From NCBI GenBank assembly GCA_001797815.1, contig MGQK01000011.1:1-26406 (forward strand): DNA of 26,406 nucleotides, written 5' to 3'. This document shows positions 4,279 through 22,582 of this stretch, piece by piece. The notes beneath the pieces were generated by a model. It made no database searches. It saw only the letters and a program-made list of their open reading frames with translations, and had not been told where the DNA came from. Position numbers and translations under genes: made by a program. This DNA comes from Deltaproteobacteria bacterium RBG_13_61_14 (GTDB lineage: Bacteria > RBG-13-61-14). Position 1 is the stretch's first letter. Every line of letters starts with the position of its first letter.

Positions 4279-4307
4279 GGGGTCAGGTCCTGACAATTCA
4301 CAATTTA
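4279..4307 (+). repeat. REP copy 1 (left end of RAYT element)
   Basis: The unit has two parts: GGGGTCAGGTCCTGAC, in which GTCAGG and CCTGAC are perfect arms around one central base, followed by AATTCACAATTTA, in which AATT-CAC-AATT is a second small palindrome. Five copies occur in this window: 4279 and 7779 forward; 5300, 8015 and 8752 reverse. Confidence 0.9.
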
Positions 4308-4308
4308 G

Positions 4309-4338
4309 TTGACAACGGCTTTGCCCTCTTGCTACACT
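4309..4338 (+). promoter_or_regulatory. RAYT promoter
   Basis: TTGACA (4309-4314), an 18-bp spacer and TACACT (4333-4338) lie immediately inside the left REP and 6 bp before the ATG at 4345. The same arrangement recurs at 20640-20668 in a RAYT remnant. Confidence 0.5.
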
Positions 4339-4344
4339 GTCGCT

Positions 4345-5292
4345 ATGTCCCGACCCTGGAGAATTCAATTCCCGGGCGCGATCTACCACGTCACCGCCCG
4401 CGGCAACGACCGGCAGGCCATCTTCCGAAATAATGCCGACCGCGAGGCTTTCCTCGAACTCCTCGGCCGCAGCCGCGACCGCTTTCATCTCCGCCTCTTC
4501 GCCTTCTGCCTGATGACCAACCATTACCATCTTTTCCTGCAAACGCCGCAACCCAACCTCGCCGCCGCTCTCCACTGGCTCAACGCCACCTACTCCGGCC
4601 GCTTCAACCGCCTCCACCGCCGCTCCGGCCACCTTTTCCAGGGCCGCTATCAGGCGGCGCTGGTCACCCAGGAAACGCATTGGCTCCACCTATCCATCTA
4701 CCTCCATCTCAACCCCGTCCGGGCCGGCCTGGTGGACGACCCCGCGGATTACGAATGGTCCAGCTTCCGCGATTATACCCGCGCCCGCTCCCGCTTCCCC
4801 TGGCTCTCGCCGGCCGCGGTCCTGGACGCTTATGGCTTAAACCCAATCGCCGCCCGCCGGGGCTACCGGCGCGAATGCCTGAGCCTGTCCGGCCGGCCCG
4901 CGAACTTCTGGGAGCAATGGAGAACCGCCCTGACCCTGGCCGCGCAGGAGCGGCTGAGGGAATGGGCGAAAAAATACCCGCCCGCCGGTCAGGCGGAAAC
5001 CGTGCCGGCCTTCCGCCGCGCGGCACGGGGAGCGCTGAACCTGCCGGCGGAGTTGAAACGGGTTTCCGCGGCTTTTGGCCGGGCCGTGGAAGAGCCTGGT
5101 CGAGGCCGCCACGGCTCCCTGGCCCGCCTCGCCGCCTATTACCATCTGGTGGAACATTGCGGGGGCAGCGTCAGGGAGACGGCCGGTTCCCTGGGCGTGG
5201 GCGCTTCCGCGGTCTCCCAGGGCCTGATCCGCTTCCGCCGTAAACTGCAAAGCGACCCGCGCTTGCGCGATCGGGTTCAGGCCTTGGCCTGA
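4345..5292 (+). CDS. REP-associated tyrosine transposase (RAYT, IS200/Y1 HUH superfamily)
   Basis: A 315-residue Y1 HUH transposase-like enzyme, expected to nick and rejoin single-stranded REP hairpins. MSRPWRIQFPGAIYHVTARG (1-20) is the classic RAYT start. TNHYHLFLQT (58-67) carries the metal-binding HUH pair H60/H62. The catalytic tyrosine is expected at Y119 in the SIYLHLNPVRAGLV segment. A C-terminal extension (about 225-315) ends in a helix-turn-helix-like segment (GSVRETAGSLGVGASAVSQG, 274-293), usual for the longer RAYTs. The ATG at 4345 is chosen over a possible in-frame start at 4309 because the family begins at MSRPWR. Both active-site elements are intact, so the protein may be functional. 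Confidence 0.92.
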   Translation: MSRPWRIQFPGAIYHVTARGNDRQAIFRNNADREAFLELLGRSRDRFHLRLFAFCLMTNHYHLFLQTPQPNLAAALHWLNATYSGRFNRLHRRSGHLFQGRYQAALVTQETHWLHLSIYLHLNPVRAGLVDDPADYEWSSFRDYTRARSRFPWLSPAAVLDAYGLNPIAARRGYRRECLSLSGRPANFWEQWRTALTLAAQERLREWAKKYPPAGQAETVPAFRRAARGALNLPAELKRVSAAFGRAVEEPGRGRHGSLARLAAYYHLVEHCGGSVRETAGSLGVGASAVSQGLIRFRRKLQSDPRLRDRVQALA

Positions 5293-5299
5293 AAAGGGT

Positions 5300-5328
5300 T
5301 AAATTGTGAATTGTCAGGACCTGACCCC
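5300..5328 (-). repeat. REP copy 2 (right end of RAYT element)
   Basis: Reverse-orientation copy, TAAATTGTGAATT then GTCAGGACCTGACCCC, starting eight bases after the RAYT stop. Its sequence is open in the forward frame and is read into the following RHS fragment (residues NCQDLTP). Confidence 0.9.
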
Positions 5329-8751: not shown

Positions 8752-8780
8752 TTAATTGTGAATTGTCAGGACCTGACCCC
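8752..8780 (-). repeat. REP copy 5
   Basis: TTAATTGTGAATT followed by GTCAGGACCTGACCCC, reverse orientation. It ends one base before the stop codon of the quinone reductase-like gene, so it sits at the immediate 3' end of that transcript. Confidence 0.88.
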
Positions 8781-14941: not shown

Positions 14942-16375
14942 TTGCGCAAGGTTGGAAAAAACCAGGTTTTGGATCATTTCCAGGAAATAGACCGGCTCTG
15001 GCGGCCCCGGGCGATCGCGGTCGTGGGCCTGAGCGACAAGCTCGGCAACATGGGCCAGATGTTCGCGATCGCGCTCAAGAACCAGGGCTTTAAGGGGCCG
15101 CTGGTGGGCGTGAACCCGGGTGCGGAGGTGAAAAGCCTGCCCAGTGTGCGCCGGCTCCAGGAATTCGAGGGGCCGCTCGACCACATTATCATCTGCGTGC
15201 CGGCCCGGGAGATCGAGGGCGTGATCCGGGACGCGGTGGAAAAGGGCGTGCGCTGTGCGGCCATGTTCACCTCCGGTTTTTCCGAGGAGGGCCACGAGGA
15301 AGGCCGGCGGCTGGAAGAGCGGATCGCGGCCATCGCCCGCGAAGGCGGTCTGCGGCTGATCGGGCCGAACTGCATGGGCCTGCACTACCCGCCCCGCGGC
15401 TTGAGCTTCCGGCCCGATATGCCCGCCGCCTGGGGCCGCGCCGCCATGACTTCCCAGTCCGGGGGCATGGCCCTCTCCACCCTGATGAACTGCGCGGAGC
15501 GCGGCGTGCCGCTGGGCAAGGTGGTGAGCTACGGCAACGAGTGCGACCTCACCGCCCAGGACTTTATCCGCTACTTTGCCGACGATCCCGAGACCGACCG
15601 CATCGTCATGTATATCGAAGGCACCAAAAACGGCCCTGAGCTTATCCAGGCCATGATCGCGGCCGGCCGGAAAAAACCCCTGATCGTGTGCAAGGGCGGC
15701 CGCACCTCGGTGGGCACCCGGGCCGCGGCCTCCCACACCGGCGCGCTCGCCGGCTCGCGCGAGATCTGGCAGGCAGCCTTCCGCCAGGCCGGGGCCAGGG
15801 TCGCAGGCAGTATTGACGAGTTGGTGGACTTGATCGAGGCGGAAGAGCGCATGGAAAAGCCCCAGGGCCGGGGTCTCGCGGTCCTCACCATCTCCGGCGG
15901 CTTCGGCGTCTTTGCCACCGACGTGGCGGCCGAGCATGGTTTCTCGGTCCCGCAGTTTTCCGACGCGACCCGGACGGCCATGGCCAAGTTCATCAATTTT
16001 CCCGGCACCTCGGTCAAGAACCCGCTGGACATGGCCGCGGCCATTTTCTTCCAGGGCGACCACGTGCCCATCTATGCGCCCCTCGGCCAGGACCCGAACA
16101 TTGACGCGGTGCTCGTGCTGCTCAGCATCGAATACATCCACCTGATCGAGGGCTTCGGACCCCTGGACCCGGTCAGTTTCACCAAGTGGTTTTTGGAGCA
16201 GATGTTCAAGGGGCTCCGCGCCGCGGGCAAGCCCGCGGCCTTTGTCTTTTTCGAGTCGGTGAAGCAGGCCCAGCGCCTGGAATACGTGAAGCTCATCCGC
16301 GATTCCGGCTTCCCGGTCTTTCCCACCGTGGAAAGGGCGATGAAGGCGCTTGCTGAGAAAGTAGGCAATAGATAG
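14942..16375 (+). CDS. Acyl-CoA synthetase (NDP-forming), alpha-type subunit
   Basis: A ~477-residue protein of the ADP-forming acetyl/acyl-CoA synthetase family, which makes ATP from acyl-CoA, ADP and phosphate in anaerobes and archaea. The N-terminal CoA-binding Rossmann domain has RPRAIAVVGLSDKLGNMGQM, then succinyl-CoA-ligase-like domains (GPNCMGLHYPPRG, MTSQSGGMA). The catalytic histidine expected to be phosphorylated is in AAASHTGALAGS (H265 from this start). The ATP-grasp beta domain is absent and no beta-subunit gene is adjacent, so it needs a partner elsewhere or has a changed role. Start: TTG at 14942 has GAGGAG seven bases upstream. TTG at 14936 is in frame but too close to that site. 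It has its own promoter and is followed by a GC hairpin repeat. Confidence 0.85.
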   Translation: MRKVGKNQVLDHFQEIDRLWRPRAIAVVGLSDKLGNMGQMFAIALKNQGFKGPLVGVNPGAEVKSLPSVRRLQEFEGPLDHIIICVPAREIEGVIRDAVEKGVRCAAMFTSGFSEEGHEEGRRLEERIAAIAREGGLRLIGPNCMGLHYPPRGLSFRPDMPAAWGRAAMTSQSGGMALSTLMNCAERGVPLGKVVSYGNECDLTAQDFIRYFADDPETDRIVMYIEGTKNGPELIQAMIAAGRKKPLIVCKGGRTSVGTRAAASHTGALAGSREIWQAAFRQAGARVAGSIDELVDLIEAEERMEKPQGRGLAVLTISGGFGVFATDVAAEHGFSVPQFSDATRTAMAKFINFPGTSVKNPLDMAAAIFFQGDHVPIYAPLGQDPNIDAVLVLLSIEYIHLIEGFGPLDPVSFTKWFLEQMFKGLRAAGKPAAFVFFESVKQAQRLEYVKLIRDSGFPVFPTVERAMKALAEKVGNR

Positions 16376-16494: not shown

Positions 16495-16797
16495 ATGAGT
16501 CCTCGCTTTCAAGTTGACCCGGCCAAAATTATCGCCTTCTGCCACAAGTGGAAAGTCCGCGAATTCTCTATTTTCGGCTCGGTCCTGCGCGAGGACTTTA
16601 ACCCGGAAAGCGACGTGGACGTGCTGGTCAGCTTCGAACCGGATGCGCCCTGGAGCTATTTTGAATGGGCCGACATGACCGACGAGTTAAAGGAGATTTT
16701 CGGCCGGGAGGTGGACCTGGTGGAAAAAGAGAGCCTGCAGAACCCTTATCGCCGCCATTCCATTCTCAGCTCCCGGCGGGTGCTCTATGCAGCCTGA
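16495..16797 (+). CDS. mntA: MNT-type nucleotidyltransferase antitoxin
   Basis: A 100-residue minimal nucleotidyltransferase. In characterised MntA-HepT pairs it inactivates the HEPN ribonuclease by AMPylating a tyrosine near the active site. The signature GSx10DxD is exact: G28-S29, ten residues, D40-V-D42 (FGSVLREDF then NPESDVDVLV). The third carboxylate is expected at D74 or close by in GREVDLVEKE. The stop overlaps the hepT start by 11 bp, so the pair is coupled. A consensus promoter lies directly upstream. The length is normal for the family. Confidence 0.9.
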   Translation: MSPRFQVDPAKIIAFCHKWKVREFSIFGSVLREDFNPESDVDVLVSFEPDAPWSYFEWADMTDELKEIFGREVDLVEKESLQNPYRRHSILSSRRVLYAA

Positions 16798-17152
16798 CCA
16801 GCGGGATGCCGCGCTCCTCTGGGACATGGTCAAATACTCCCGCCTGATCGGCCAAATCACCCAAGATGTTGCTTATGCTCACTATCTGAAAGATCGCAAA
16901 CTGCAACTAGCCGTGGAGCGAGCGGTCGAGGTCGTGGGTGAAGCGGCCCGGCATGTTTCCCCGGCCTTCAAGGAGGCCCATCCGGAAATTCCCTGGCGCG
17001 GGATCATCGCCCAACGCAACGTCCTCGCCCATGAATACGGGGAAATCAATCAAGACCGTCTCTGGATGGTGGTGACCGAGAGAATTCCGAAATTGCTCGA
17101 ATTCCTGGACCGCCTCGAATTGCCTCCCAAGCCGACGGATGCTGAAACTTGA
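16787..17152 (+). CDS. hepT: HepT-like HEPN ribonuclease toxin
   Basis: A 121-residue all-helical HEPN protein (DUF86/HepT family), a toxin that cleaves RNA as a dimer. The catalytic RX4HXY motif is complete: R77-NVLA-H82-E-Y84, with Y84 the expected target of AMPylation by MntA. WDMVKYSRLIGQ (12-23) and AVERAVEVVGEAARHVSP (42-59) are typical helices. It overlaps mntA by 11 bp. The intact motif suggests an active toxin held in check by its partner. The pair probably works in phage defence or stress response, as for known homologues. Confidence 0.92.
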   Translation: MQPDQRDAALLWDMVKYSRLIGQITQDVAYAHYLKDRKLQLAVERAVEVVGEAARHVSPAFKEAHPEIPWRGIIAQRNVLAHEYGEINQDRLWMVVTERIPKLLEFLDRLELPPKPTDAET

Positions 17153-17212: not shown

Positions 17213-17680
17213 ATGGGTTCTAAGCATTCAGGAGATCAAGGGGAGAGGGAGGTCATAAGAAAAGTCTGTTGCCCTAATTGTGGCAAGAAATTAATGGTAT
17301 TACCTCCAAATTATCCTTTATATGATATCCAATGCACGGGCTGTTATTTTCGAGCTCAAATCAAAACCAACAAATGCAGGCCAAAAAATGTTGTCTTCGG
17401 TGCCGGTTGGGAAATTGTCAATAAGGTTTTAAAATCGGGATTTATCACACCGCCCTTGATTCTGAACTTCAAATGGGAGGAAGAGAGTAAGCCAAAACAA
17501 GAAATTCGTTTTTATCCTTTTGTCCCTAGAAAAAACTTAAAGCATTATAAATTATCTAAAAAGGCAAGGAGGGCAGGTTATCGAATGTTTAATTACGTTG
17601 AAATGGATAAAGTGCCTTTTTTTATTTGGACTTCCTCTGGAATTTGGAGTATAGGGGGCATAGCTTCAAATAACATCTAA
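17213..17680 (+). CDS. Small DpnI-like PD-(D/E)xK endonuclease domain protein
   Basis: A 155-residue protein that I align by eye with the catalytic domain of DpnI, which cuts adenine-methylated GATC. Shared features in order: a zinc ribbon, C20-PN-C23 and C41-TG-C44; D38 and QIK (49-51), with the same 11-residue and 2-residue spacings as DpnI D53/E64/K66; and KKARRAGYRMFNYVEMDKVP (116-135), like the DpnI TARRAGWIGCNIDLSQVP segment. The central acid is Q here (D...QxK), a variant known in Mrr-type nucleases. The DpnI C-terminal winged helix is absent, so specificity may differ. The ATG has AAGGAGG seven bases upstream. It is AT-rich compared with its neighbours, has no visible methylase partner, and sits 60 bp after hepT. 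DpnI residue numbers are from memory. Confidence 0.72.
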   Translation: MGSKHSGDQGEREVIRKVCCPNCGKKLMVLPPNYPLYDIQCTGCYFRAQIKTNKCRPKNVVFGAGWEIVNKVLKSGFITPPLILNFKWEEESKPKQEIRFYPFVPRKNLKHYKLSKKARRAGYRMFNYVEMDKVPFFIWTSSGIWSIGGIASNNI

Positions 17681-18929: not shown

Positions 18930-20615
18930 ATGGAATTCTGGAGCATATTACTCGACGTCGTTACGCTGCTCGCCGCAGCGCTGGTGCTGGGCATGGTCTT
19001 CGAGCGGCTCCGCCAGAGCGCCATCCTCGGGTATCTCCTCGCCGGCATCCTGCTCGGGCCCGGCGCGCTCAACTGGATCAGCAACAAGGACGCGCTCTCG
19101 GCTCTGGCCGAGCTGGGCGTGGCCCTCCTCCTCTTCACCATCGGCCTCGAGTTTTCCTGGAAGCGGCTCCGAGCCCTGGGCGCCGTCGCCACCGCCGGCG
19201 GAACTTTGCAAATCCTCCTCACCGGCGGAGCCGCGGCCGCGGCCGGCCTTTTCGGGGGCCTGGACCTGAAGGCGGCCCTGGCCCTCGGCGCCATGATCGC
19301 GCTCAGCTCCACCGCCTCGGTCCTGCGCATGCTCCAGGACCGGGCCGAGCTCGACAGCGTGCACGGCCGCAATTCGCTGGGCATCCTCCTGCTTCAGGAC
19401 ATCGCCGTGGTGCCCCTGGTCCTGCTCGTGACCATGCTCGGGACCGGGGGATCGTTCTCCCAGATGACGGCCGCCCTCGGCCGGGTCGCGGTGCTGGGCT
19501 TGCTCTTTTTGGGGGGACTGTATTTATTAAGTTCCTATCTCCTTCCCCGGCTTCTCGCCGCCACCGCCATCACCAAGAACCGCGAGCTGCCCATCCTGCT
19601 CGCGATCGCGGTCTGTCTCGGGTCGGCCTGGGCCGCGCACGCCCTCGAGCTCTCGCCCGCGCTCGGCGCCTTCGCCGCCGGACTCTTGCTCGGCGAGTCG
19701 CCCTATGCCACCCAGATTCGGGCCGACGTGGGGCCTTTGCGCACCATGTTCGTCACCCTGTTCTTTACCTCGATCGGCACCCTCACCGAGCTCGCCTGGG
19801 CCAGGGAACATTGGCCGGCCCTGGTCGCGGCAGTGGTTGCCATCATCGCCGGCAAGGCGCTCCTGGTCTGGCTGGTGGTCCGGCTCTTCCGACATTCCCA
19901 CCGCCACGCCCTGGCCACCGGCATCTGCCTGGCTCAGGTGGGAGAGTTTTCCTTTGTTCTCGCCCAAAGCGCCTGGTCAAGCCAGATCATTAGCCAGGAC
20001 CTGTTCCGACTAGTTGTTTCCTCGACCGTGATCACCCTGTTTCTGACTCCTTTTCTAGTCGCCATGGCCCCGAACCTGGCTCGCCGGGTAGAGAAAAGGC
20101 TCGTTTGGCTTGGATTAGTTGCGATCAGAGAACACGAGCTCGCCTTGGGGGAAAGACGTTTGAGCGGACACGTGATCGTCGTCGGCTTCGGGCCGGCCGG
20201 TCAAGGAGTGCTGGAGGCCTTAAATCGCGCCGGAATTCTTGCCCTGCTCGTGGAACTAAACCCCCGCACCGTGGCGACGGCCCGCCAGCGCAGGATTTTA
20301 GCCGAGGTCGGCGACGCAACATCCGAGCCGGTGCTGGCCGGCCTGGAGGTGGCCGCGGCCCGGGCGGTGGCCGTGACCGTGCCCGACCATCGCACCGCGC
20401 TCCTGATCATCCGCCAGGTCCGGGCCTTGGCCCCGCACGTGCCGATCATTGCCCGGGCCCGCTACCACGTCTATGCCGAAGACCTCCGCTCCTCCGGCGC
20501 CCATATCGTGGTGGACGAGGAGCGGGAAATCGGCGGCCTGTTGGGCCAGGCGGTGATGCGCTGTTTGCAACATCATCCGCCGTCGCCGGACTCCGGGCAA
20601 GCTCCTTCCCCTTGA
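18930..20615 (+). CDS. CPA2-family monovalent cation:proton antiporter with RCK domain (Kef-type)
   Basis: A 561-residue inner-membrane antiporter. Residues about 1-385 form roughly a dozen membrane segments of the Na+/H+ exchanger type (PF00999), with ILGYLLAGILLGPGALNW early and the ion-site-like ALGAFAAGLLLGESPYA around residues 243-259. About 410-525 is a cytoplasmic TrkA-N/RCK Rossmann domain with the nucleotide loop GHVIVVGFGPAGQGV and acidic strand end LVELNP, which gates Kef/YbaL-like proteins by NAD(H) or similar ligands. It probably exports K+ or Na+ in exchange for protons. No KefF-like gene is adjacent. The gene stands alone between two repeat-containing gaps. Confidence 0.9.
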   Translation: MEFWSILLDVVTLLAAALVLGMVFERLRQSAILGYLLAGILLGPGALNWISNKDALSALAELGVALLLFTIGLEFSWKRLRALGAVATAGGTLQILLTGGAAAAAGLFGGLDLKAALALGAMIALSSTASVLRMLQDRAELDSVHGRNSLGILLLQDIAVVPLVLLVTMLGTGGSFSQMTAALGRVAVLGLLFLGGLYLLSSYLLPRLLAATAITKNRELPILLAIAVCLGSAWAAHALELSPALGAFAAGLLLGESPYATQIRADVGPLRTMFVTLFFTSIGTLTELAWAREHWPALVAAVVAIIAGKALLVWLVVRLFRHSHRHALATGICLAQVGEFSFVLAQSAWSSQIISQDLFRLVVSSTVITLFLTPFLVAMAPNLARRVEKRLVWLGLVAIREHELALGERRLSGHVIVVGFGPAGQGVLEALNRAGILALLVELNPRTVATARQRRILAEVGDATSEPVLAGLEVAAARAVAVTVPDHRTALLIIRQVRALAPHVPIIARARYHVYAEDLRSSGAHIVVDEEREIGGLLGQAVMRCLQHHPPSPDSGQAPSP

Positions 20616-20639
20616 GCCAGTGGACCGTGGCCATCTTTC

Positions 20640-20668
20640 TTGACACGGGCCTGCCGCCTCGTTACGAT
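20640..20668 (+). promoter_or_regulatory. RAYT-derived promoter upstream of the 20737 gene
   Basis: TTGACA (20640-20645), 17-bp spacer and TACGAT (20663-20668). The position relative to the following MNQPWRIQFP start is the same as in the intact RAYT element (4309-4338), so this promoter seems to come from a RAYT copy. Confidence 0.6.
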
Positions 20669-20674
20669 GAGCTT

Positions 20675-20740
20675 ATGAACCAGCCCTGGCGGATTCAATT
20701 TCCCGAGGCCCTGGTTGAGAGGAAAGGCAATCACCGATGA
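20675..20740 (+). pseudogene. RAYT 5' remnant: 21-codon leader peptide
   Basis: The frame MNQPWRIQFPEALVERKGNHR matches the RAYT start (MSRPWRIQFPGAIY...ARGNDR), then stops. Its TGA overlaps the ATG of the next gene (ATGA at 20737-20740). It is either a deletion remnant or a leader now used for coupled translation of the downstream gene. Confidence 0.75.
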
Positions 20741-21312
20741 AAGTTCTCAAAGGCTCCGCCATCCTGGATTATGTCCGGATCATTCGCGCGAACCCGGACA
20801 AGAACTGGGACCGCTGGCTCACCCCGGAAGACTGGGAAATCATCCACAGCAAGATCCTGCCCTCCCAGCGGTATCCTTACGAAACCTTCCGCAACCTCGG
20901 CTTCGCGGTGTTCAAGGAGATCGCCGGCGGCGACCTCAACGTGGCGCGTCAGTTCGGCCGCTTCACCATGAAGAACTGGATCGAGATCTACCGGAGCAGC
21001 ATCCTGGAGCCGGGCGACCCGCTGCGCAGCCTTGAGAAGCTGGCCCTGATCCGCCGAAAATTCATGGATATTGAAAACGAGACCAAGGTGGGGGAGCACG
21101 GACCGGACTGGGTCCGCTACCAGATCATCCACTACACCGATGAACCCGATGAAGAGCGCAAACTGGCCTATGTTTACCAGATGGCCGGCCAATTGGAAGA
21201 GGTCGTGGCCCAAGCCGGCGGCCAGAACCCCTCCACCACGATCAGCCCTATCCCCGGCGGACACGAAATCCTGGTGAAGTGGACGCCGGCCGCAACCGCC
21301 GCTTCTGAGTAG
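20737..21312 (+). CDS. Uncharacterised soluble protein (possibly DUF2378-like)
   Basis: A 191-residue protein without membrane segments. It has helical N-terminal sequence (KGSAILDYVRIIRANPDKNW), then YPYETFRNLGFAVFKEIAGG, EHGPDWVRYQIIHYTDEP and a final beta-like GGHEILVKW. The order helix bundle, G-P-x-W-V-R-Y strand, hydrophobic helix and terminal V-K-W strand recalls the myxobacterial DUF2378 / heme-NO-binding-like family, but this is a loose match from memory. Its ATG overlaps the stop of a RAYT-derived leader peptide, and GAGAGGAAAGG inside that leader supplies the ribosome-binding site. A terminator-like stem follows at 21503. Confidence 0.7.
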   Translation: MKVLKGSAILDYVRIIRANPDKNWDRWLTPEDWEIIHSKILPSQRYPYETFRNLGFAVFKEIAGGDLNVARQFGRFTMKNWIEIYRSSILEPGDPLRSLEKLALIRRKFMDIENETKVGEHGPDWVRYQIIHYTDEPDEERKLAYVYQMAGQLEEVVAQAGGQNPSTTISPIPGGHEILVKWTPAATAASE

Positions 21313-21502
21313 GAACCTCGACCGCTGGCAACTCCTCCCCTTGCCCTCCCCTCGCTTTCCGACGACAGGGAGCGCGCTTAGCATCAAGGCCGGCGAAGGC
21401 CGCGACCCATCGCGCCTCTACCCGCTTTCCCCCAAGAAGGCAAAGCCATTGATTGCCACCCAGGATTGTGTTAACCTAATAAGCAGATAAGAACTCCGGA
21501 CC

Positions 21503-21544
21503 AGTCCGGGCGGACGAAAAGGGATCCTCTTCCCCGGATTTTTT
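21503..21544 (+). terminator. Terminator-like stem for the 20737 transcript
   Basis: TCCGGG (21505-21510) pairs with CCCGGA (21533-21538), followed by six T (21539-21544). GTCCG (21504-21508) can instead pair with CGGAC (21511-21515), or CCGG (21496-21499) with CCGG (21506-21509), so alternative folds exist. Confidence 0.45.
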
Positions 21545-21561
21545 CATTTTCTGAAAAATCA

Positions 21562-21590
21562 TTGACAGCCTGAAAAGGGCGGAGTAAATT
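21562..21590 (+). promoter_or_regulatory. Promoter of nfnAB
   Basis: TTGACA (21562-21567), 17-bp spacer, TAAATT (21585-21590): perfect -35 and five of six at -10. It predicts a leader of about 130 nt. Confidence 0.7.
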
Positions 21591-21683
21591 AAACAGGTGC
21601 TCGGTTTGGCACAAATCCTTACATCGTCGTCACGGCAAACCCTGCAACCCACAGCCTAACCTAATCCGGTGGGGAATTCTTCT

Positions 21684-21709
21684 CCGGCCCGGTTTGTCTT
21701 CCGGGCTGG
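21684..21709 (+). promoter_or_regulatory. Hairpin in the nfnA leader
   Basis: CCGGCCCGG (21684-21692) and CCGGGCTGG (21701-21709) form a nine-pair stem (one G-U) with a TTTGTCTT loop. It ends about ten bases before the purine-rich ribosome-binding site (AGGGAGGGGG) of nfnA. Confidence 0.5.
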
Positions 21710-21727
21710 AGCCAGGGAGGGGGAAGT

Positions 21728-22582
21728 ATGGGTCGAAAAGTCGTGCACAAGGAACAACTGGCTCCGAATGTCATTCGGATGCTGGTGGAGGCGCCGGAGA
21801 TCGCGAAGAAGCACCGGGCCGGGCAGTTCATCGTGCTCCGGATCAACGAGACCGGCGAGCGGATCCCGCTCACCGTGGCCGACGCCGACGTGGTTAAGGG
21901 GACGATCACCCTCATCTTCCAGGTGGTGGGCAAGACCACCATGCTGCTGCGCGATGTGCCCGTGGGCGGCGAGATCCTGGACCTGGTCGGGCCCCTGGGC
22001 ACGCCCACCCACGTCGAGAACTTCGGCACCGCGGCCTGCGTTTGCGGCGGCATCGGCACCGCCCCGCTCTATCCCATCGCCAAGGCCCTGAAACAAGCGG
22101 GCAACAAGGTGATCAGCATCGTCGGCGCCCAGAAGGCGTCCCTGCTCATCCTGGAAGAAGAGATGCAGGCGGTCTCCAGCGTGCTCCACATCTCCACCGA
22201 TGACGGCTCCAAGGGCTTCCACGGCCTGGTCACCGACGTGCTGAAAAAGATCCTGGACTCGGGCGAAAAGGTGGACTACATCATCGCCATCGGGCCTCTG
22301 CCCATGATGAAGGCGGTGGCCAACACCACCCGGCCCTACGGGGTCAGGACCATGGTCAGCCTCAACTCGATCATGATTGACGGCACCGGCATGTGCGGCG
22401 GCTGCCGGGTGATGGTGGACGGCCAGCGCAAGTTCACCTGCGTGGACGGGCCCGAGTTCGACGGCCACCAGGTGGACTTCGACAACCTCGGCGCCCGGCT
22501 CAAGACCTACCGGGAGATGGAAGAGCGCTCGCGCAAGGAATACGAAGAACACCTCTGCCGCCTGCAACCGGCCGCCAGTTAA
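21728..22582 (+). CDS. nfnA: NADH-dependent ferredoxin:NADP+ oxidoreductase, small subunit
   Basis: A 284-residue FAD/[2Fe-2S] subunit of the PyrK-like ferredoxin reductase family, paired with the large subunit below. Together NfnAB couples NADPH oxidation or formation to NADH and ferredoxin by electron bifurcation in anaerobes. RIPLTVAD (45-52) is the FAD loop, and GGIGTAPLYPIAKAL (107-121) binds pyridine nucleotide. The iron-sulfur site has D218, C223, C226 and C238 (MIDGTGMCGGC then FTCVDGPEFDGH), fitting the unusual Asp/3Cys ligation described for Thermotoga NfnA. It could also be annotated as sulfide dehydrogenase beta subunit. The promoter, leader hairpin and strong ribosome-binding site are upstream. 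Confidence 0.88.
   Translation: MGRKVVHKEQLAPNVIRMLVEAPEIAKKHRAGQFIVLRINETGERIPLTVADADVVKGTITLIFQVVGKTTMLLRDVPVGGEILDLVGPLGTPTHVENFGTAACVCGGIGTAPLYPIAKALKQAGNKVISIVGAQKASLLILEEEMQAVSSVLHISTDDGSKGFHGLVTDVLKKILDSGEKVDYIIAIGPLPMMKAVANTTRPYGVRTMVSLNSIMIDGTGMCGGCRVMVDGQRKFTCVDGPEFDGHQVDFDNLGARLKTYREMEERSRKEYEEHLCRLQPAAS

Follow-up and report, generated by a model that had tools for sequence, protein, structure and literature searches.

Why should a short reading frame that resembles the beginning of a transposase stand, together with a promoter, directly in front of an unrelated gene? The question is raised by a contig of Deltaproteobacteria bacterium RBG_13_61_14 (MGQK01000011.1, assembly GCA_001797815.1), whose 26,406 nucleotides were analysed at full length and are called the window here. 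An earlier note on this DNA had proposed that the promoter and a 21-codon frame correspond to the first part of a RAYT element (TnpA_REP; IS200/IS605-like Y1 transposases), that the frame supplies the ribosome-binding site of the gene behind it, and that a transposase start has thereby become a coupled leader for a cellular gene.

The features of the locus are collected in Table 1. The 191-aa gene (the recipient) shares its direction with the antiporter gene, whose stop lies 24 nt before the -35 hexamer and 121 nt upstream of the recipient. In the promoter scan the TTGACA-17-TACGAT site scores 10 of 12 matches, its 17-nt spacer occupying 20646-20662. The overlap of the leader's stop with the next start, also claimed in the earlier note, is plainly present as ATGA at 20737-20740; a stop/start spacing of -4 nt on the same strand is the geometry of a coupled pair. 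Further upstream, the window carries two adjacent genes that overlap by a few bases (16495-17152), one NTP_transf_2 (MNT-like) and one HepT-like, which probably form an MNT/HepT toxin-antitoxin pair; adjoining them is a gene of the DpnI/Dam-replacing family (17213-17680; 38.6 bits against a cut-off of 26.7).

Table 1. Features of the relic locus and of the intact element used as yardstick (window coordinates)
Feature	Position	Strand	Basis or remark
Intact RAYT, yardstick	4279..5328	+	GGGGTCAG end, promoter, ORF from ATG 4345, CTGACCCC end
Antiporter gene, CPA2-type (KefB/KefC/YbaL-like)	18930..20615	+	Pfam Na_H_Exchanger + TrkA_N, NCBIfam
RAYT-derived segment: promoter, start codon, RAYT codons 1-12	20637..20710	+	nhmmer, ungapped
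-35 hexamer TTGACA	20640..20645	+	promoter scan; 35 nt before leader ATG
-10 hexamer TACGAT	20663..20668	+	promoter scan; 6 nt before leader ATG
Leader ORF MNQPWRIQFPEALVERKGNHR, 21 codons + TGA	20675..20740	+	ATG at 20675; codons end 20737
Leader tail, uncertain origin	20711..20736	+	RAYT codons 16-23 minus two codons, or the recipient's own 5' region
Shine-Dalgarno-like GAAAGG	20722..20727	+	9 nt before ATG 20737; read from sequence
Recipient gene, 191 aa	20737..21312	+	ATG overlaps leader TGA (20738-20740) as ATGA

A DNA profile was built from the 5' ends of 18 RAYTs, drawn from the source genome and two genomes of the same order. Run with nhmmer against the window, it gave two significant matches in total: the intact RAYT, at 94.6 bits, and an ungapped match at 20635-20710 (28.7 bits, E=1.4e-8). 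A second model with a longer 5' flank matched 20637-20710 (33.5 bits, E=3.6e-10) with no extension to the left. An ordinary promoter followed by a short frame might come to look like a RAYT start by chance, and promoter hexamers by themselves are not rare, 14 of 3000 random placements scoring at least 10 of 12 in the null distribution. Against such an accident stand the ungapped match over 74 nt, with E values in the window of about 1e-8 to 1e-10, and the background of the 5'-end profile, which never exceeded 11.3 bits in 5 Mb of simulated order-2 Markov sequence. The protein level points the same way: a 26-residue profile of RAYT N-termini finds the leader at E=3.7e-5 (genome-wide), aligning it to profile positions 1-23/24 with a two-residue gap, and the leader carries the N-terminal pattern of the lineage's RAYTs, M-x-x-PWRIQFP-x-A. 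Finally, a degenerate DNA motif for PWRIQ[FY] has 10 exact matches in the 4.7 Mb genome, namely eight intact RAYTs, one truncated RAYT and the leader locus, and is thus otherwise restricted to RAYT starts. Given the DNA profile, the protein profile and the uniqueness of the motif, we reject a chance resemblance, which we consider highly improbable; to judge by its sequence, 20637-20710 almost certainly descends from a RAYT. The single RAYTs nearest to this segment are on contigs C27 and C78. DNA-level homology ends at 20710, in codon 12, leaving a relic of 74 bases.

RAYTs have been described with inverted REPs on both flanks (PMC2817692), and the intact RAYTs of this lineage likewise carry inverted multicopy end repeats: GGGGTCAG opens the element about 25-30 nt before the -35 hexamer and CTGACCCC closes it near the stop of the ORF. 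The intact RAYT of the window is recognized by Y1_Tnp at 43 bits and by NF047646 at 79.7 bits, just short of the cut-off of 80, and more RAYTs occur in the source genome and in the two genomes of the same order. The REP-like repeats GGGGTCAG/CTGACCCC are found at window positions 4279, 5321, 7779, 8036 and 8773; they are multicopy genome-wide, and some copies lie outside RAYT elements. A search within the window found neither GGGGTCAG nor CTGACCCC near the relic locus, the nearest copies of the RAYT end repeats being at 8773 and at 22340, the latter inside a gene. Within 20301-21900 there is no credible RAYT region past residue 23, and the HUH/Y1 catalytic domain is absent. With both end repeats and the later parts of the transposase missing, the relic must be immobile; read from its sequence, it is a promoter and a start only, not a RAYT gene.

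The promoter, too, is of RAYT design. Of 19 RAYTs tabulated, 18 of them intact and one truncated, 14 carry the pentamer TTGAC plus a sixth base of any kind, and the hexamers are retained while the spacers are diverse. The distance from -35 to ATG is mostly 34-38 nt in the lineage, 35 nt being commonest, and that from -10 to ATG about 6-9 nt, most frequently 6 nt; the relic has exactly these commonest values. A gap of mostly 6 nt leaves little room for a Shine-Dalgarno site, and with this -35/-10 spacing transcription would begin on the ATG or immediately beside it; RAYT mRNAs of this lineage are therefore probably leaderless. By the same spacing, the transcript of the captured leader would probably start near 20675 and be leaderless as well.

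The end of the leader is a different case. With the two-residue gap allowed for, its last residues, VERKGNHR, fall on RAYT residues 16-23 (V..GNxR), and BLAST alignments of the leader reach RAYT residue 23; among 5000 random 8-residue tails, 113 (2.3%) matched the RAYT equally well. This is suggestive at the peptide level, whereas the DNA of the tail is unremarkable against RAYT (p=0.23). A RAYT origin of the entire leader, GAAAGG included, is thus unsupported at the DNA level, and the correspondence asserted in the earlier note holds for the promoter and codons 1-12 (28.7-33.5 bits) and is not demonstrable for the last 26 nt. A further similarity links the tail to the purine-rich 5' region of a paralog of the recipient on contig C7 (p=0.02); we did not accept this as proof of a native origin, because a Shine-Dalgarno tract rich in purines and common to both would be enough to produce the likeness. 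That the leader supplies the ribosome-binding site is accurate insofar as GAAAGG lies inside the leader ORF, but it sits in the portion without demonstrable RAYT origin and may be the recipient gene's own site.

The recipient belongs to a lineage-restricted paralogous family with 13 matches in the source genome and more in the two relatives; a GTDB scan yielded one distant homolog, 32% identical. The family is conserved from a VKGS motif near residue 4, and conservation so close to the N-terminus makes the ATG at 20737 a credible start. The nearest paralog, that on C7, has about 50% protein identity and a quite different upstream region with no RAYT leader. None of the other members inspected has a RAYT leader upstream, and the idea that the family is RAYT cargo was rejected for this reason. 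The AlphaFold model of the 191-aa protein (pLDDT 92) gives H-NOX as the top Foldseek match (E=6.5e-6, TM about 0.6), followed by TRAPP Bet3-like folds. The sequence matches no Pfam or NCBIfam family and lacks the heme motif YxSxR, and Pfam HNOB reaches only E=0.22, for one family member. The predicted fold is H-NOX-like, and on present evidence the protein is not an H-NOX heme sensor.

The surroundings of other RAYTs bear on how such a start could come to lie before a gene. Longest-ORF gene calls turned out unreliable in the GC-rich sequence analysed here, and neighbour counts were for this reason restricted to Pfam-confirmed genes. Eight of the 18 intact RAYTs (L169-L186, genomes G000-G002) have a co-oriented Pfam-confirmed start 0-15 nt past the element end, with distances from the CTGACCCC end to the ATG of 0, 1, 4, 4, 10, 13, 14 and 15 nt, and one further intact RAYT has such a gene 30 nt after its CTGACCCC end. 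The probability of eight close placements in 18 is about 1e-6 if 5% are expected by chance, a figure that is our own rough estimate. At L180 the ATG of the next gene begins 8 nt before the RAYT ORF ends. Some RAYTs of other phyla (among L187-L204) also seem to adjoin co-oriented ORFs, and at L188, L190 and L191 the CTGACCCC-type end is read as SRPDP or RSDP.

The three genomes hold six other RAYT 5' relics (G000 C70 and C99; G001 C4; G002 C308, C687 and C759), the match on C99 being weak (E=0.008). C687 stops at the contig edge; each of the five readable cases is followed by a co-oriented, Pfam-confirmed gene (galT-like, SSF symporter, PALP enzyme, DUF362 and Mrr-type); with the window relic, a co-oriented gene follows in 6/6. 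One RAYT, cut down to about 0.3 kb by internal deletion (L166; G000 C70, about 16000-16300), lies just upstream of the galT-like gene; its end repeats and promoter region are retained along with about 40 RAYT codons, and it is possibly a promoter-bearing mini-element.

The following course of events would account for the locus. A RAYT would formerly have stood in the gap downstream of the antiporter gene, oriented like the 191-aa gene behind it, a placement that is frequent among intact RAYTs of this phylum. Its left repeat would have been lost, and likewise the stretch from about codon 13 through the right repeat, by a deletion route that we infer, bringing the remaining promoter and 12 codons next to the start region of the recipient. 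RNA polymerase would now start near 20675, yielding an mRNA whose 5' end coincides with the AUG or lies one or two nucleotides from it. Ribosomes would read the 21 codons in leaderless fashion and stop at the TGA that overlaps the recipient ATG, where reinitiation would be aided by GAAAGG, a site that would also permit direct initiation. That a RAYT promoter and start were captured by deletion and act as promoter and coupled leader of the recipient is, in our estimate, just on the probable side. Both promoter use and coupling are inferences here, since the three genomes of the phylum that were searched yielded no orthologous locus for a before-and-after comparison.

Taken separately, a contribution of the relic promoter to expression of the recipient is somewhat probable from its sequence. 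It has to be weighed against a neutral relic, that is, a decaying RAYT 5' end next to a gene expressed by read-through from the antiporter or from another promoter. Read-through is a serious alternative, the co-directional antiporter gene being close enough upstream to express the recipient in this way, and function is not required for such remnants to exist: a distance of 240-490 nt separates other RAYT 5' relics from the genes that follow them, and some of these relics have stops or weak promoters. Simple decay fits less well with hexamers and spacing that are intact (10 of 12, spacer 17). The stretch from promoter to codon 12 has moreover been kept while the element ends are gone, a pattern that fits retention and is also explained by a recent origin. 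We give a neutral relic substantial weight while regarding it as less than probable.

Translational coupling of leader and recipient, as predicted from the arrangement, is a possibility that we place a little below the probable. The RAYT promoter might instead drive the recipient with the 21-codon frame being incidental and translation starting independently from GAAAGG. The position of GAAAGG, 9 nt before the ATG, would suit this, as would a native origin of the tail that contains it; and because the recipient starts with ATGAAA, the ATGA overlap would arise whenever the leader frame is the right one, a one-in-three chance. If transcription began on the AUG or right beside it, on the other hand, translation of the leader would be hard to avoid, and the ATGA overlap is standard coupling geometry. 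Capture of the promoter without a working leader seems to us rather unlikely, and the earlier note's view that a transposase start has turned into the coupled leader of a cellular gene stays plausible on this reading of the DNA.

The locus can be set beside several known systems. The relic's 12 codons, MNQPWRIQFPEA, and its promoter match the 5' ends of intact RAYTs in the lineage, and the inverted multicopy end repeats of those RAYTs are of the kind described for RAYTs (PMC2817692), whereas the relic has neither catalytic region nor repeats. In E. coli, translation has been found for upstream ORFs that open with a 5'-terminal AUG and precede a gene with a Shine-Dalgarno site, and such ORFs can influence that gene (PMC4965119). 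The locus shares with them a predicted 5'-terminal AUG, a short ORF and a downstream gene with its own Shine-Dalgarno-like site; the E. coli cases were shown experimentally, while the AUG here is a transposase start whose use is predicted. NTGA is the commonest coupling spacing of adjacent genes and among the most efficient (PMC12548453). The -4 nt overlap of leader and recipient takes this form as ATGA, although the upstream cistron is not a complete gene but a transposase fragment of 21 codons. In Salmonella, the 5' end of IS200 tnpA, a related Y1 transposase gene, has been domesticated by the host as the small RNA 5'tnpA (PMC12594629); that product is a regulatory RNA processed from the tnpA transcript, whereas the relic's role would be that of a promoter and leader in cis. 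Searches of open-licence papers turned up no RAYT 5' end described as serving as promoter and leader, and co-option of a mobile-element promoter is already known as a kind.

One might generalize, tentatively and against what we regard as unfavourable chances, that elements of this RAYT/REP family prefer sites directly upstream of co-oriented starts and, through their leaderless promoter and a stop placed close to the next start, amount to mobile promoter-and-leader cassettes, internal deletions of which fix captured starts as coupled leaders; the relic of the window would then be the most reduced case seen. The intact copies beside start codons suggest a bias in target site or in retention, and to our knowledge such a bias of RAYTs toward start codons has not been described. 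Discussions of RAYTs usually present them as domesticated agents that spread REP sequences. Should their 5' ends repeatedly remain before genes as promoters with a translated start, RAYTs would exert a second, cis-acting influence on host expression, a role that could be tested with ordinary transcript mapping.
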